A DNA stretch of 64,000 nt from Trichlorobacter ammonificans (lineage in GTDB: Bacteria; Desulfobacterota; Desulfuromonadia; Geobacterales; Pseudopelobacteraceae). The translations under genes and the position numbers were made by a program. The stretch lies in NCBI RefSeq assembly GCF_933509905.1, contig NZ_OW150024.1, positions 1,848,001 to 1,912,000 of the forward strand. The letters are read 5' to 3'. The notes beneath the pieces were generated by a model, which saw nothing but the letters and a program-made list of their open reading frames with translations, ran no database searches and was not told the DNA's origin. Shown here in pieces: positions 5,601 to 50,837 of this stretch; positions within the stretch are counted from its first letter, which is position 1; each line of letters opens with the position of its first letter.

Positions 5601-6845
5601 TCAGCGCACCGCCGTGGTGGTCAGTTCGTGGCGGTAGGTCAGATTGCCGGAGACCGCTCCCCCCCAATAGGCGTACCAGTAGGAGTAGTGCTGCACCGGA
5701 CCGATTTCCCGCATCCGGCTGCCCGTATCGACGCTGAGGGTCCCACCGTCGGTTCCCATGATCAGGTAACCGTCCCCCCGCTTGCCGAACGCGCCGCCGT
5801 TGGGCATGAACATCGACGGGTCTGCCGGTATCCAGCCGGCCCCTTCAAGGTAGAAGTCGGGCCAGGCGTGGGGGCCCCACTCGCCGCTTTCCCGCAGGAT
5901 GCCCCCCAGGTTGTAGCGGGCCGGAATGCCGCGGCTGCGCAGCAGGGAGATATAGAGCGAACTGAGTTCGCCGCAGGCCCCGCCCCCGGCCCGGAGCGTA
6001 TCGTCCAGCGTGGGACCGTGGGAGCGGCCGAGGTGCTTGAAGCGCTGCTGCTGGTAGAGGTAGGCCCGGCGGGCGAACTCCAGCGGTTCCAGGGCTGTGC
6101 CCCCGATTTCCTCCACCATCGCCTTGATGGCCGGATGATCGGGCTGGATCAGGGGGCCGCCGGCGACGGTGAAGGTGCGATACAGGGGAGAGGCCGTGTC
6201 GTACGGCTTGACGCCATCGATCCGGTCGGCGGCCAGGGGAGAGATGGCGACGTCGAATTCAAGCGTGATTTCGGCGGGGGGCTCCGGCGCCTCCACCCGC
6301 AGGAAACGGTTCGGAGAAGAGGGACCGCCGACCAGGGTACCGGCGCTGTAGCGGACGTTTTCCACCCGCTGAAATTCTCCGAATGAAGGGACCGGCATGA
6401 GAATCACCACCTTCAGGCGGCCGCCGCCGCTGTGACTGAAGGTGGTATCCGTCCGCACCACCCGCGAGACGACATGGTAGGTGCGCTCGGTCCCGCGCTG
6501 AAGCGCACGGGAAGGAGGCTGCTGGGAGGAAACGGCCGTACTTGTCCCTTTGGCCTGCCCATCCCCGCTTGTTTGTTCTTCCGGCGGAGCCGGCTTTCGC
6601 GGCGGCGGCTGGGGCAGCTGCTGTTTCGGCTTTGCGGGAGAACGCCGGTAGGTCGGCTCATCATCCCCGCCGGGACTGTCGTCAGTGCCGCGCGGCGTGG
6701 CCAGGCCCTCGTAGAGAGGAATTGCCTCGGATTCCGACGCCGCCGACAGGTCGGCCACCGCCGGATGGGACAGCAGGGCCGCAAGGGCCAGGACGAACAG
6801 TACCCGAACGACACGGAGCGACCAACAGAGACTGTGACCAGACAT
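5601..6845 (-). CDS. Exported transglutaminase-like domain protein
   Basis: 414 residues. The N-terminus has a basic then hydrophobic stretch (residues 11-30) ending HPAVADLS, a typical Sec signal peptide. Residues 50-100 form a proline- and glutamine-rich linker. The C-terminal half is a transglutaminase-like cysteine-protease fold with all three catalytic positions visible: C291 in GGGACGELSS, H326 in GPHAWPDFY and D342 in IPADPSM. Such periplasmic proteins usually act as peptidases or amidases rather than true transglutaminases. The start was set at the ATG at 6845, which places the signal peptide at the N-terminus; the frame runs open further upstream without support. Divergent from the second pfkA. 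Confidence 0.85.
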   Translation of the reverse strand: MSGHSLCWSLRVVRVLFVLALAALLSHPAVADLSAASESEAIPLYEGLATPRGTDDSPGGDDEPTYRRSPAKPKQQLPQPPPRKPAPPEEQTSGDGQAKGTSTAVSSQQPPSRALQRGTERTYHVVSRVVRTDTTFSHSGGGRLKVVILMPVPSFGEFQRVENVRYSAGTLVGGPSSPNRFLRVEAPEPPAEITLEFDVAISPLAADRIDGVKPYDTASPLYRTFTVAGGPLIQPDHPAIKAMVEEIGGTALEPLEFARRAYLYQQQRFKHLGRSHGPTLDDTLRAGGGACGELSSLYISLLRSRGIPARYNLGGILRESGEWGPHAWPDFYLEGAGWIPADPSMFMPNGGAFGKRGDGYLIMGTDGGTLSVDTGSRMREIGPVQHYSYWYAYWGGAVSGNLTYRHELTTTAVR

Positions 6846-48017: not shown

Positions 48018-48692
48018 TCAGGACACGAGCCGACCGTCCTTCACCTGGATGACCTGTTCTGCTGCTCTGGCGATCTGATCGTTGTGGGTCACGATGACGA
48101 TGGTGGTGCCCCGGCGATGCAGATCACGCAGGATGGCCAGCACCTCCGCCTCCGCGGCGGAATCAAGATTACCGGTGGGCTCATCCATCAGCAGAATATC
48201 CGGATCGTTGGCCAGGGCGCGGGCGATGGCCACCCGCTGCTGCTGACCTCCGGAAAGCTGGGACGGCTTATTGTTCGCCTTGTCGGCCAGCCCCACCAGG
48301 GCAAGCAGTTCCATGGCGCGCTCCGTTTGGCGTCTCTCCGGCACGCCGGCCAGCATCATGGCGGTTTCGATATTCTCCCGGGCGGTCAGGTTCTGCAGCA
48401 GGTTGAAGAACTGGAAGACAAAACCGATTTTCTCCCGACGCACCGCCGCCAACCGGTTGTTATCCAGGCCGCTCAACTCCGTACCCCCCAGCCAGACGCT
48501 GCCGCTGCTGGGACGGTCCAGCCCGCCCAGCAGGTGCATCAGGGTACTCTTGCCATGCCCCGAGGGACCGACGATACAGGCAAAAACCCCTTTCCCGATC
48601 TCCAGCGACACCTCTCGCAGCGCCGTGGTGGCCGCCTCGCCGGTGCCGTACACCTTGCCGACGTTTTCAGTTCTGATGAAGATATCATTCAT
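48018..48692 (-). CDS. ABC transporter ATP-binding protein (LolD/MacB-like)
   Basis: 224 residues. Walker A GPSGHGKST (42-50), Q-loop FVFQFFNLL, signature LSGGQQQRVAIARAL, Walker B ILLMDEPTGNLD and the H-loop histidine in IVTHN are all intact. The type is that of ATPases paired with FtsX-like permeases for lipoprotein or peptide export. Its ATG overlaps the permease stop by eight bases. Last gene of the four-gene cluster. Confidence 0.94.
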   Translation of the reverse strand: MNDIFIRTENVGKVYGTGEAATTALREVSLEIGKGVFACIVGPSGHGKSTLMHLLGGLDRPSSGSVWLGGTELSGLDNNRLAAVRREKIGFVFQFFNLLQNLTARENIETAMMLAGVPERRQTERAMELLALVGLADKANNKPSQLSGGQQQRVAIARALANDPDILLMDEPTGNLDSAAEAEVLAILRDLHRRGTTIVIVTHNDQIARAAEQVIQVKDGRLVS

Positions 48693-49851
48693 AGCTGATC
48701 GCCTCCACCGGCGACAGTCGCGCCGCCCGCCAGGCAGGGTAGAGACCGGCCACCACCGCCACGATTGTTGAAAAAACAATGGAGCCGACAACCAGCTTCA
48801 GGTCAATGACCGAGGCGGTACCGGACCCCTTGACCAGCGTGGTGAAGGCATTGTTGCCGATGTAGGGTGCCACTGCCATGGAGGTGACCAGACCGGCCGC
48901 GACACCGCAGACGCCCCCCAGCAGGCCATAGAAACCGGACTCCAGGATGAAGGCTCCGAAGATGGTGGACTGCCGCGCCCCCAAGGCCAGGAGGATGCCG
49001 ATCTCCCGTTTGCGCTCGTAGGTCGCGGTCATCATGGTGTTGATGATGCCGAAGGCCGCTGCCAGCACCGATACCGCCGCGATGAGCTGCAGGGTGATGT
49101 TCACCGAACCGACGATGGCCAGTACCGACCTGAGCATCTGTTTGTCTGAAATCACACCCAGCCCGCCGCTTTCCACCGTAATCTGCTCGATGTACTGATC
49201 AATCAGTGCCAGGTTGTCCACGGTGACCGCAGCGTAGGAAACCCGGTCCACCGCCTTGAACAGCCGCTGGGCCGTAGACAGGGGGATGAACAGGGTATAG
49301 TCGTCCCTGCCGCCGGTACGGGCAAGCACGCCGGCCACGGCGAGCTGCGTGCCGCGGACGGTAAGGGAGGAGCCGGGCCGCAGGCCGAACTGGTCGGCCA
49401 GGGCCGTGCCGACCACCACGCCATCGGCGCTGCCGGGGCCGAAATAACTTCCCTGGCTAACCTTCCACCCCTTGAGCCGCTTGGTTTCTTCCGGCAGGAT
49501 ACCGCTGACGGAGACCGGCTTATTGTTGATGGCGGTCTTCTGGGCCAGAAACGGCACCACGGTCAGCCCCTTGATGGCAGAGATTTTACCGATCTCTGCC
49601 ATGGTGATGGTGGTGGGCATCTGGTCGCCGGTCAGCACCGATAACTGTTCATAGCCGCAGGAGCCCTTGGGGACCACCACCAGGTTGGCCCCCAGGGCGT
49701 TGGTTTCCCGATAGATTTCTTTCTTCAGACTCCCTCCCATGGACTGGAAGGTTACAAACGAAGCGATACCGATGGTGATCCCCAACAGGGTGAAGGCGAA
49801 CCTGCCCCGCCGGCGGGAGATGTTGCTGACCACAAGCTTTGACAGTGTCAT
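48685..49851 (-). CDS. ABC transporter permease, FtsX/MacB type
   Basis: 388 residues. One membrane helix at about 18-38, a large periplasmic MacB-like domain (about 40-255), then three helices near the C-terminus, with the family coupling helix in TYERKREIGILLALGARQ. It ends AWRAARLSPVEAISYE, as in MacB/LolC relatives. A MacB- or Lol-type mechanism, pulling substrate from the outer leaflet or periplasm, is likely. Coding region abuts the OB-fold-like gene. Confidence 0.93.
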   Translation of the reverse strand: MTLSKLVVSNISRRRGRFAFTLLGITIGIASFVTFQSMGGSLKKEIYRETNALGANLVVVPKGSCGYEQLSVLTGDQMPTTITMAEIGKISAIKGLTVVPFLAQKTAINNKPVSVSGILPEETKRLKGWKVSQGSYFGPGSADGVVVGTALADQFGLRPGSSLTVRGTQLAVAGVLARTGGRDDYTLFIPLSTAQRLFKAVDRVSYAAVTVDNLALIDQYIEQITVESGGLGVISDKQMLRSVLAIVGSVNITLQLIAAVSVLAAAFGIINTMMTATYERKREIGILLALGARQSTIFGAFILESGFYGLLGGVCGVAAGLVTSMAVAPYIGNNAFTTLVKGSGTASVIDLKLVVGSIVFSTIVAVVAGLYPAWRAARLSPVEAISYE

Positions 49852-50238
49852 CTACCCTCCGATCTTATGGTTGCGCACCACCTTCAGCTTGTGCGCGGAA
49901 AACAGGTAGCCGTCGGCCAGCTTGACGAAGGAGCCGGTCAGCCGCACCTCGTCCCCGAACTTCGGCATCTGCCCCTGGTATTTGATCGGAATGAACAGCT
50001 TGTTGCAGTTCTGGGTCGTGCACTGCAGCTCCTTGATATCCATGATGCCGAAAATAGACGGATCCTGGTTGGATATTCCCCCCATGATACCGGTAATGGT
50101 GATGGTGCCGGTGAAGGAAGCGGGATCATTGCCCACGTCGTTCACGTTCAGGGCCTTGGCGCTGCCGGTGGTGACGACAACAATGCCGATGAGTGCTACA
50201 ACTGCCAGGGCCAGGGCGACGATGACGGATTTTTTCAT
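49852..50238 (-). CDS. Exported or anchored OB-fold-like protein
   Basis: 128 residues. An N-terminal hydrophobic segment (about 4-24, ATT then GSAKA) is a signal peptide or anchor. The rest is predicted beta-rich: FTGTITITGIMGGIS, FGIMDIKELQC with a nearby second cysteine, and FGDEVRLTGSFVKLADGYLF, which resembles the OB-fold of CcmE- and NrfJ-like exported proteins. I do not assign a precise family. AGGAG precedes the ATG. It is between the Cys-rich gene and the permease, with its stop next to the permease start. Confidence 0.8.
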   Translation of the reverse strand: MKKSVIVALALAVVALIGIVVVTTGSAKALNVNDVGNDPASFTGTITITGIMGGISNQDPSIFGIMDIKELQCTTQNCNKLFIPIKYQGQMPKFGDEVRLTGSFVKLADGYLFSAHKLKVVRNHKIGG

Positions 50239-50280
50239 GGTACGACTCCTTACGCAGAAAAAGTTGAGCAGGTAGCCGCA

Positions 50281-50323
50281 GAAGCGTAGGCGAACGCTTC
50301 GCGGACGTACTGCACTGGTACGT
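50281..50323. repeat. Two adjacent small inverted repeats in the gap of the export cluster
   Basis: GAAGCG (50281-50286) pairs with CGCTTC (50295-50300), and ACGTAC (50305-50310) with GTACGT (50318-50323). GCGGAC occurs on both sides of the second hairpin. This may be a REP-like element or mRNA structure between genes; there is no T tract. Confidence 0.42.
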
Positions 50324-50360
50324 AGCGGACAGCACGGTGGTGAGACTTCTGTCAGGGGAG

Positions 50361-50705
50361 TTAAACGGCGGCTTCCGGGGGGTATTCGATCAGCGTGGGG
50401 TATTCCTTGGGGTGGTAGCTGCAGGACAGGACCGGATGGACGAAAGCCGGCGCCTGACGCATCTCCACCACCGGCAGCTCGGCAAGTACTGCGGTCGACA
50501 GGCAGTGTGAGCAGGCGCAGTCCGGTGTGGTGCAGGGCACCTGTTTTTCCGGACTTTGCCGTGCTCCGCCCTCGCAGCAGCGATCGGGCGTCGGGGCAGC
50601 GAGCAGTGCCGAAGCAGTGGTGAACGCTCCGCTCGTCACCACGACGGCGGCAACCAGGGTTATCAGGGCGACTATGCGGAGCCAGGAGCCGAGCATGGCA
50701 GCCAT
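50361..50705 (-). CDS. Small exported cysteine-rich protein
   Basis: 114 residues. A signal peptide-like N-terminus (hydrophobic about 9-30, ending TASALLAA) is followed by a cysteine-rich middle with a CC pair, then C, C-x-C-x2-C, and a later single C, and a C-terminal segment without strong features. The cysteine spacing suggests metal binding or disulfides in the periplasm. ATG at 50705 or at 50696 are both possible. It is the first gene of the transporter cluster, 122 bases before the OB-fold-like gene. Confidence 0.68.
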   Translation of the reverse strand: MAAMLGSWLRIVALITLVAAVVVTSGAFTTASALLAAPTPDRCCEGGARQSPEKQVPCTTPDCACSHCLSTAVLAELPVVEMRQAPAFVHPVLSCSYHPKEYPTLIEYPPEAAV

Positions 50706-50837
50706 AGTAGGAAATCCGGAGCTGCGGTGTCAAGCACGTTGCTCCTGCCGCACGCCGCCGGCACGCAAGATTCCGCTGGACAACGCCGCCGGGCCACGGT
50801 ACCACATCCGGACACCACACGCATACCGGGGGGCATC

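Follow-up and report, generated by a model that had tools for sequence, protein, structure and literature searches.

The window considered here is a stretch of 64,000 nucleotides (nt) from Trichlorobacter ammonificans (NCBI RefSeq GCF_933509905.1, contig NZ_OW150024.1, positions 1,848,001 to 1,912,000), a bacterium whose genome is a single contig of 3.06 Mb. It contains a quartet of genes transcribed in the order CYS (a small cysteine-rich protein), OB (an OB-fold protein), an FtsX/MacB-type permease and an ABC ATPase. An earlier note, made from the letters of the window, had placed the four genes on one strand, and all four open reading frames (ORFs) are indeed on the minus strand (Table 1). 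Its remark that the last three genes abut or overlap is exact, since no base separates the OB stop codon from the permease ATG and the permease and ATPase genes overlap by 8 bases. The quartet is flanked by a convergent HerA-type gene downstream and a divergent gene upstream (the latter recognised by eye), and thus forms a closed unit.

Table 1. Features of the quartet, in positions of the window (aa, amino acids)
Feature	Position	Strand	Details
CYS, small Cys-rich protein, putative CutF/CruR-like leader (nascent-chain metal sensor)	50705-50361	minus	114 aa; hydrophobic N-terminus, C-terminal Pro-Pro
OB, exported or membrane-anchored OB-fold protein, putative periplasmic metal carrier	50238-49852	minus	128 aa; Cys73 and Cys78 (CxxxxC) invariant
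FtsX/MacB-type permease with large periplasmic domain	49851-48685	minus	388 aa; Cys65 (PKGSCGYEQ) invariant in 10 aligned sequences
ABC ATPase	48692-48018	minus	224 aa; 48692 taken as start in place of the mechanical ORF start (48791); by eye, intact Walker A, signature and Walker B motifs
Cys cluster of CYS (Cys43-Cys44, Cys58, Cys63, Cys65, Cys68)	50502..50579	minus	From alignment A2
Pro-Pro codons of CYS (Pro109-Pro110)	50376..50381	minus	40 residues past Cys68; four residues follow to the C-terminus
CYS-OB intergenic region, possible control site	50239..50360	minus	122 nt; good ribosome-binding site AAGGAG at its end
Promoter-like TTGACA-18-TACTAT	50704..50733	minus	Weak: one found against 0.6 expected by chance

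The promoter-like sequence overlaps the first CYS ATG, so translation of CYS may start at the second ATG (residue 4), near the 5' end of the transcript.

Conservation of the quartet

OB matches have been found in 10 of 76 genomes of the family, 61 of 244 genomes of the class (by profile) and 22 of 395 genomes of a phylum sample. Nine relatives lie in named contigs, Geobacter and Geotalea among them, and a search of plasmids gave one weak match (35% identity over 60% of the query). A subset of the OB matches from the class and phylum searches, 68 loci, was read; the relatives include close pairs, and the counts given here are all uncorrected for kinship. The order CYS-OB-permease-ATPase is kept in 32 of them, or in 27 by a stricter script rule that missed five quartets through overlong ORF starts (L091, L094, L103, L110 and L111). 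In a further locus, L085, the CYS, OB and permease genes are present up to the contig end.

The linkage of the first two genes is tight. Among the 244 class genomes, CYS is found in 51, OB in 61 and both in 45 (Fisher p 7e-29, kinship ignored). Of these 45 genomes, 43 have CYS upstream of OB and on its strand, the matches being 61–300 nt apart (the rule was a distance within 400 nt). The two exceptions are G131, narrowly outside the rule at 404 nt, and G090, in which CYS and OB are not adjacent. Identity to the window proteins in the aligned relatives is 66–87% for the permease, 55–81% for OB and 27–42% for CYS. The earlier note had made its proposal depend on the four genes staying together, and the recurrence of the same order across the fetched OB loci identifies the quartet as a conserved unit, beyond chance. 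No description of a homologous cluster was found in searches of the open-access literature.

A variant quartet is present in L175 (G107:C7, 4321-7199). It consists of a CYS relative, an OB-like lipoprotein with CQSNGCW (by eye) that the OB profile missed, a distant permease (E 1e-46) and an ATPase.

The cysteine-rich protein and its Pro-Pro end

Neither CYS nor OB matches a Pfam family at E<=1, and CYS has no NCBIfam match at that threshold either. Membership of CYS in DUF2946 was considered and rejected on the missing Pfam match. The N-terminus of CYS is hydrophobic and its cysteines form the motifs CC, CxxxxC, CxC and CxxC. In an alignment of 10 sequences (A2), Cys43, Cys44, Cys63 and Cys65 are invariant, and Cys58 and Cys68 are kept at 90% or more. 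The window protein has an extra cysteine in the linker, 13 residues before Pro-Pro, and some other CYS proteins also have one in the linker. Among 35 CYS ORFs, CC is present in 34. The C-terminal text is (D/E)(Y/H/W)PPE in 32 and FHPPS in two, each with no more than five residues after it, and L099 runs into a stretch of N. Beyond Pro-Pro lie three residues in 30 of 34 proteins, two in 2, four in the window CYS and five in 1.

The distance from the last cluster cysteine to Pro-Pro is nearly fixed. With the cysteine sought 34–50 residues ahead of Pro-Pro and L099 left out because of a run of N, the distance in 34 homologues is 39 residues (22 proteins), 40 (nine), 41 (two) or 36 (one), a regularity to be read with the knowledge that the CYS-collecting profile favours equal spacing and that the relatives are not independent. 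When the 34–50 limit is lifted, CxCxxC is present in 29 of the 35 ORFs and the distance is 39 or 40 in all 29 (L099 included, at 39). The linker has a median pairwise identity of 12.5% between homologues, and the neighbouring Cys-to-Cys stretch, although shorter, is more variable (variance 1.70 against 0.68, Levene p 0.017). Twelve more CYS relatives or look-alikes lie near other genes, and the distance is 39 residues for six of them, 38 for two and 44 for one. Among the twelve, L174 and L176 give 38 and 39 once the right Pro-Pro and cysteine are chosen, L177 has only a CC 64 residues off, and L179 and L171 (the latter at 135) were missed by the CYS profile.

Two kinds of nascent copper sensor have been described with which CYS can be compared. 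CutF of Rhodobacter capsulatus senses copper as a nascent chain, its Pro-Pro end affects the ribosome, and it has a CxxxC copper motif and a stem-loop that shields the next Shine-Dalgarno sequence; genes of CutF-like proteins are reported to precede RND efflux genes (PMC9973294). CruR, a DUF2946 protein of Bordetella pertussis, also has a Pro-Pro end that acts on the ribosome, and copper switches its operon off. The distance between its CXXC and RAPP is reported to vary by one or two residues at most, with RAPP three residues from the end (PMC9426467).

CYS resembles CutF and CutF-like proteins in being shorter than 150 aa, in having a Cys motif and a Pro-Pro within the last 15 residues, and in being followed on the same strand by a gene (OB, 122 nt downstream) within 1000 nt; its hydrophobic N-terminus may be a cleavable Sec signal like theirs (PMC9973294). 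With CruR it shares CXXC, a Pro-Pro about three residues from the end, a conserved Cys-to-Pro spacing and a similarly long intergenic region (162 bp in CruR, 122 in CYS) (PMC9426467). The differences from CutF are the lack of CxxxC, the lack of a supported hairpin at the next ribosome site and the OB-FtsX-ABC genes downstream; the terms ABC transporter, FtsX, MacB, Desulfo and Geobacter are not found in the main text of the CutF paper (PMC9973294). Unlike CruR, CYS has no DUF2946 match, ends in YPPE instead of RAPP, and has 39–41 residues from the last cluster Cys to Pro-Pro where CruR has 45 between CXXC and RAPP; CruR, moreover, precedes a copper uptake system (PMC9426467). The architecture of CYS (short, with a hydrophobic N-terminus, a Cys cluster and a near-terminal Pro-Pro) is that of the copper-sensing nascent leaders. 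The earlier note had offered substrate and metal sensor as roles for the cysteine-rich product. The sensor is retained, most likely in the form of a nascent-chain leader, and the substrate is not favoured, CYS probably being neither a substrate nor an adaptor.

The OB-fold protein

The description of the second protein as OB-fold-like is supported by a moderate-confidence structure prediction and a Foldseek search. The model, made from 10 sequences, has a helix followed by a small barrel. CusF chains appear at Foldseek ranks 3, 7, 13 and 17 (E 1.1e-3 to 2.5e-3), among many other matching OB folds. The OB fold is therefore supported by the model, and a link to CusF is suggested by fold and genomic context. 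Both proteins appear to be small periplasmic OB folds, and OB relatives lie beside CusA-type genes in a few loci. No sequence match to CusF was found in Pfam or the PDB: the only PDB match (E 0.86) is not credible, and a profile search gave no CusF chain at E<=1. The metal ligands of CusF are His, Met and Trp, while OB has a Cys pair instead; C-x(3-5)-C occurs somewhere in 65 of 69 OB ORFs.

The earlier note had proposed that OB is an adaptor in place of a membrane-fusion protein. This has been rejected as the main reading because OB also occurs alone and heads an RND-type operon with its own adaptor-like gene (by eye); a metal carrier fits the contexts better.

Solo OB relatives (L115, L117, L119, L125, L128, L129 and L132) are often followed by a membrane protein of 154–185 aa with text like YWLGYSYAL. 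Two of these membrane proteins were scanned and match no Pfam family at E<=1. Solo OB and this type of membrane protein may form a unit of their own.

The permease and ATPase

The permease matches MacB_PCD (87 bits) and FtsX (67 bits) and the ATPase matches ABC_tran, all over the Pfam cut-offs. The best named models all fall short of their equivalog cut-offs: lolCE (108 bits against 362) and MacB (71 against 966) for the permease, LolD (232 against 308) and MacB (245 against 966) for the ATPase. The predicted permease structure has a low overall confidence (predicted local distance difference test, pLDDT, 60), with most of the periplasmic domain near 80 and Cys65 in a low-confidence part. It matches LolE and MacB structures with Foldseek E-values down to 3.7e-18. 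The text G-x-C-x-(Y/F)-EQ, which includes the invariant cysteine, is present in 46 of 50 permease ORFs. In Geotalea toluenoxydans (L027, 8023-9187) tblastn recovers the permease as two pieces in different frames (1-311 and 313-388), which may reflect a frameshift of the assembly or the strain.

By domains and fold, the permease and ATPase belong to the MacB/FtsX superfamily (type VII ABC), so the export cluster of the earlier note, with an FtsX permease and an ATPase of the MacB/Lol superfamily, is supported at family level by Pfam, model scores and structure matches. The pair shares with MacB and LolCDE the MacB_PCD and FtsX domains and the fold, and with LolD a separate ATPase gene. It differs from them in its scores, its single permease, the absence of MacA or another adaptor and of TolC from the unit, and the signature cysteine in the periplasmic domain. 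In MacB the ATPase is fused to the permease, and LolCDE has two permeases. FetBCD of the fetMP-fetABCDEF cluster is a further ABC unit linked to a metal and accompanied by periplasmic Cys proteins, and it is needed together with iron uptake and Cys proteins; it has two permeases, serves iron uptake and is partnered by FetMP, DUF2318 and thioredoxin proteins, none of which are in the quartet (PMC10783030). Nothing relevant on a metal-linked FtsX-ABC system in Geobacter was found in searches of the open-access literature.

Metal-linked genomic contexts

Relatives of CYS and OB occur beside metal genes. Selected neighbouring proteins were scanned, and outer-membrane factors, adaptors, ArsR types and some CusA types were largely named by eye. 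In the source genome itself (L168), a CYS relative of 113 aa (E 5e-6) is followed by outer-membrane-factor-like and adaptor-like genes and a CusA/CzcA RND pump (TIGR00914, 815 bits against a cut-off of 701); its neighbours are a heavy-metal P-type ATPase (562 bits, cut-off 346) and, by eye, an ArsR-type gene. In G011 (L179/L021), one strand carries a leader look-alike, CusC/CusB-like genes (by eye), CusA (1164 bits), a P-II-like gene (100 bits, under its cut-off of 202) and then OB-permease-ATPase. The same three genes directly follow a CusA-like gene in G101 (by eye), and in L114 (G219; by eye) an RND-type operon starts with OB alone. L118 has ArsR-type genes together with an SO_0444-like Cu/Zn efflux fragment (214 bits, under the cut-off of 300), and a heavy-metal P-type ATPase adjoins the CYS relative of L173. 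Other relatives adjoin ArsR-type genes or, rarely, HgcA/HgcB.

In L132 (G549:C445, 3908-6870), a distant OB relative (6015-6443), an ArsR-type gene and a small VGCCGSPM membrane protein lie by the mercury-methylation pair HgcA (434 bits over 275) and HgcB (142 over 99). L126 (G538:C7, 3741-6829) has an ArsR-type gene, an OB relative, a similar small membrane protein and an HgcAB-like fusion (358 bits over 285). A general linkage of OB to HgcAB was considered and discarded: HgcA is over its cut-off in 114 of the 395 phylum genomes and stands beside OB only in G549. The source genome also has an HgcA over the curated cut-off (453 bits, G000:C1:595798-596751), so on this match the bacterium may be a mercury methylator.

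Proposed role and alternatives

The gene order, conservation, motifs, near-fixed spacing, predicted fold and genomic contexts lead us to a reading of the quartet that we hold with about even confidence. It would be a soft-metal envelope unit, most likely for a copper- or silver-like metal, in which a cotranslational sensor controls a metal carrier and a type VII ABC machine. The metal, the pausing, the direction of control, the substrate and the export are parts that we infer, and they would fit together as follows. CYS would be translated first and its export would begin. The length of the ribosomal exit tunnel is such that the Cys cluster should stand at the tunnel mouth when Pro-Pro is decoded; with the ribosome at Pro-Pro near the stop codon, the cluster, 39–40 residues behind, would just be leaving the tunnel and could bind metal. 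Metal binding would alter the pause at Pro-Pro and, through it, how strongly the genes downstream are expressed, in the manner of CutF or CruR. OB, on the periplasmic side, would bind metal through its CxxxxC pair. The permease and ATPase, driven by ATP, would move the metal or its carrier, or unload it, on the periplasmic side of the membrane.

Several observations weigh against this proposal. The identity of the metal is itself inferred, and no Cus gene was recognised by eye beside the quartet in the window. DUF2946 (PF11162) is found neither in the window CYS, nor in four CYS relatives, nor in the source genome, and is over its cut-off in 1 of 244 class genomes; the exact CxxxC of CutF is not in CYS. 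OB occurs without the ABC pair in several loci, and CYS-OB without it in L106, so OB may work alone or with a different partner. The OB model has a pLDDT of 69, replication protein A takes the first Foldseek rank with a better E-value than CusF, and the tRNA ligase OB domains lead the VIA-align results (Z up to 10). In VIA-align no periplasmic protein ranks as high as the tRNA ligases and replication proteins, which was taken as a shared fold only.

Control at the RNA level was not supported by the tests made on the CYS-OB gap, which folds slightly better than shuffled sequences (mean z -1.5, 10 of 34 below -2). With 0.55 (n=23) against 0.60 (n=83; p 0.95), the ribosome site of OB is paired to no greater degree than in control genes, OB starts with fewer than 5 of 6 consensus ribosome-site matches having been dropped (23 of 34 kept). 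Nor is there pair-specific complementarity of the CYS stop region to the OB ribosome site: over 33 loci (L099 left out for its run of N), the lowest p among nine windows is 0.068. A CutF-type hairpin hiding this site is unsupported. A C-rich, G-poor gap of the Rho type is likewise unsupported, with a median C/G of 1.41 in the 34 CYS-OB gaps and 1.24 in 28 control gaps (p 0.17).

These negative RNA-level results, together with the six conserved cysteines and the hydrophobic N-terminus, would suit a CYS that acts as a mature periplasmic metal-binding protein, a buffer or donor working with OB and the ABC pair, whose Pro-Pro end is a protein-protein contact rather than a stalling motif. However, a ribosome ruler accounts better than a folded protein for a linker of about 12% identity but near-fixed length and for a Pro-Pro kept at the C-terminus, and CYS relatives or look-alikes come first in RND-type efflux operons; we regard the mature protein as rather unlikely. 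The invariant cysteines in the OB and permease alignments could also belong to a system for metal delivery, or for thiol or redox supply, in the maturation of a periplasmic metalloprotein. The ABC pair would then serve import or assembly, a role suggested for FetBCD with FetMP, and the leader would report metal shortage with the polarity of CruR. The need for FetBCD in iron uptake with Cys proteins (PMC10783030) and the shutdown of the CruR operon by copper (PMC9426467) are precedents for this. The nameable contexts, on the other hand, are those of efflux, namely CusA-type RND genes (L021 and L168 scanned, L083 and L114 by eye), the Cu/Zn efflux fragment of L118 and the P-type ATPase of L173. 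No recurring metalloenzyme gene was recognised beside the quartet among the loci listed, for which no dedicated search was made, and delivery appears quite improbable.

The case for an ordinary LolCDE- or MacB-like exporter of lipoproteins or lipophilic substrates, with the Cys proteins as unrelated passengers, comes from the permease and ATPase, which score best against the LolCE, MacB and LolD models, and from the MacB and LolE structures matched by the permease. With scores below the cut-offs, a single permease, neither MacA nor TolC in the unit and a tight CYS-OB linkage standing against it, this explanation is given little credence.

Implications for metal sensing

On the reading of the quartet as a metal-sensing and metal-handling unit, a broader proposal can be put forward, tentatively and with somewhat more doubt than belief. 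CYS would be the founding member of a distinct family of cotranslational metal sensors that evolves fast, belongs to bacteria of the Desulfuromonadia type and measures metal with a ribosome ruler of about 39 residues from Cys cluster to Pro-Pro. This family would control RND efflux operons and also a previously undescribed metal unit, in which a CusF-like OB carrier works with a mechanotransmission-type ABC machine but without a membrane-fusion protein. Descriptions of nascent leaders that sense copper date from 2022–2023 and concern Bordetella and Rhodobacter. If the proposal is true, cotranslational control would be widened to Geobacter-type bacteria, known for metal respiration and mercury methylation. 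The same leader architecture, with an unrelated sequence and a near-invariant ruler, would then stand at the head of an ABC operon, and a type VII ABC machine would be tied to metal handling.

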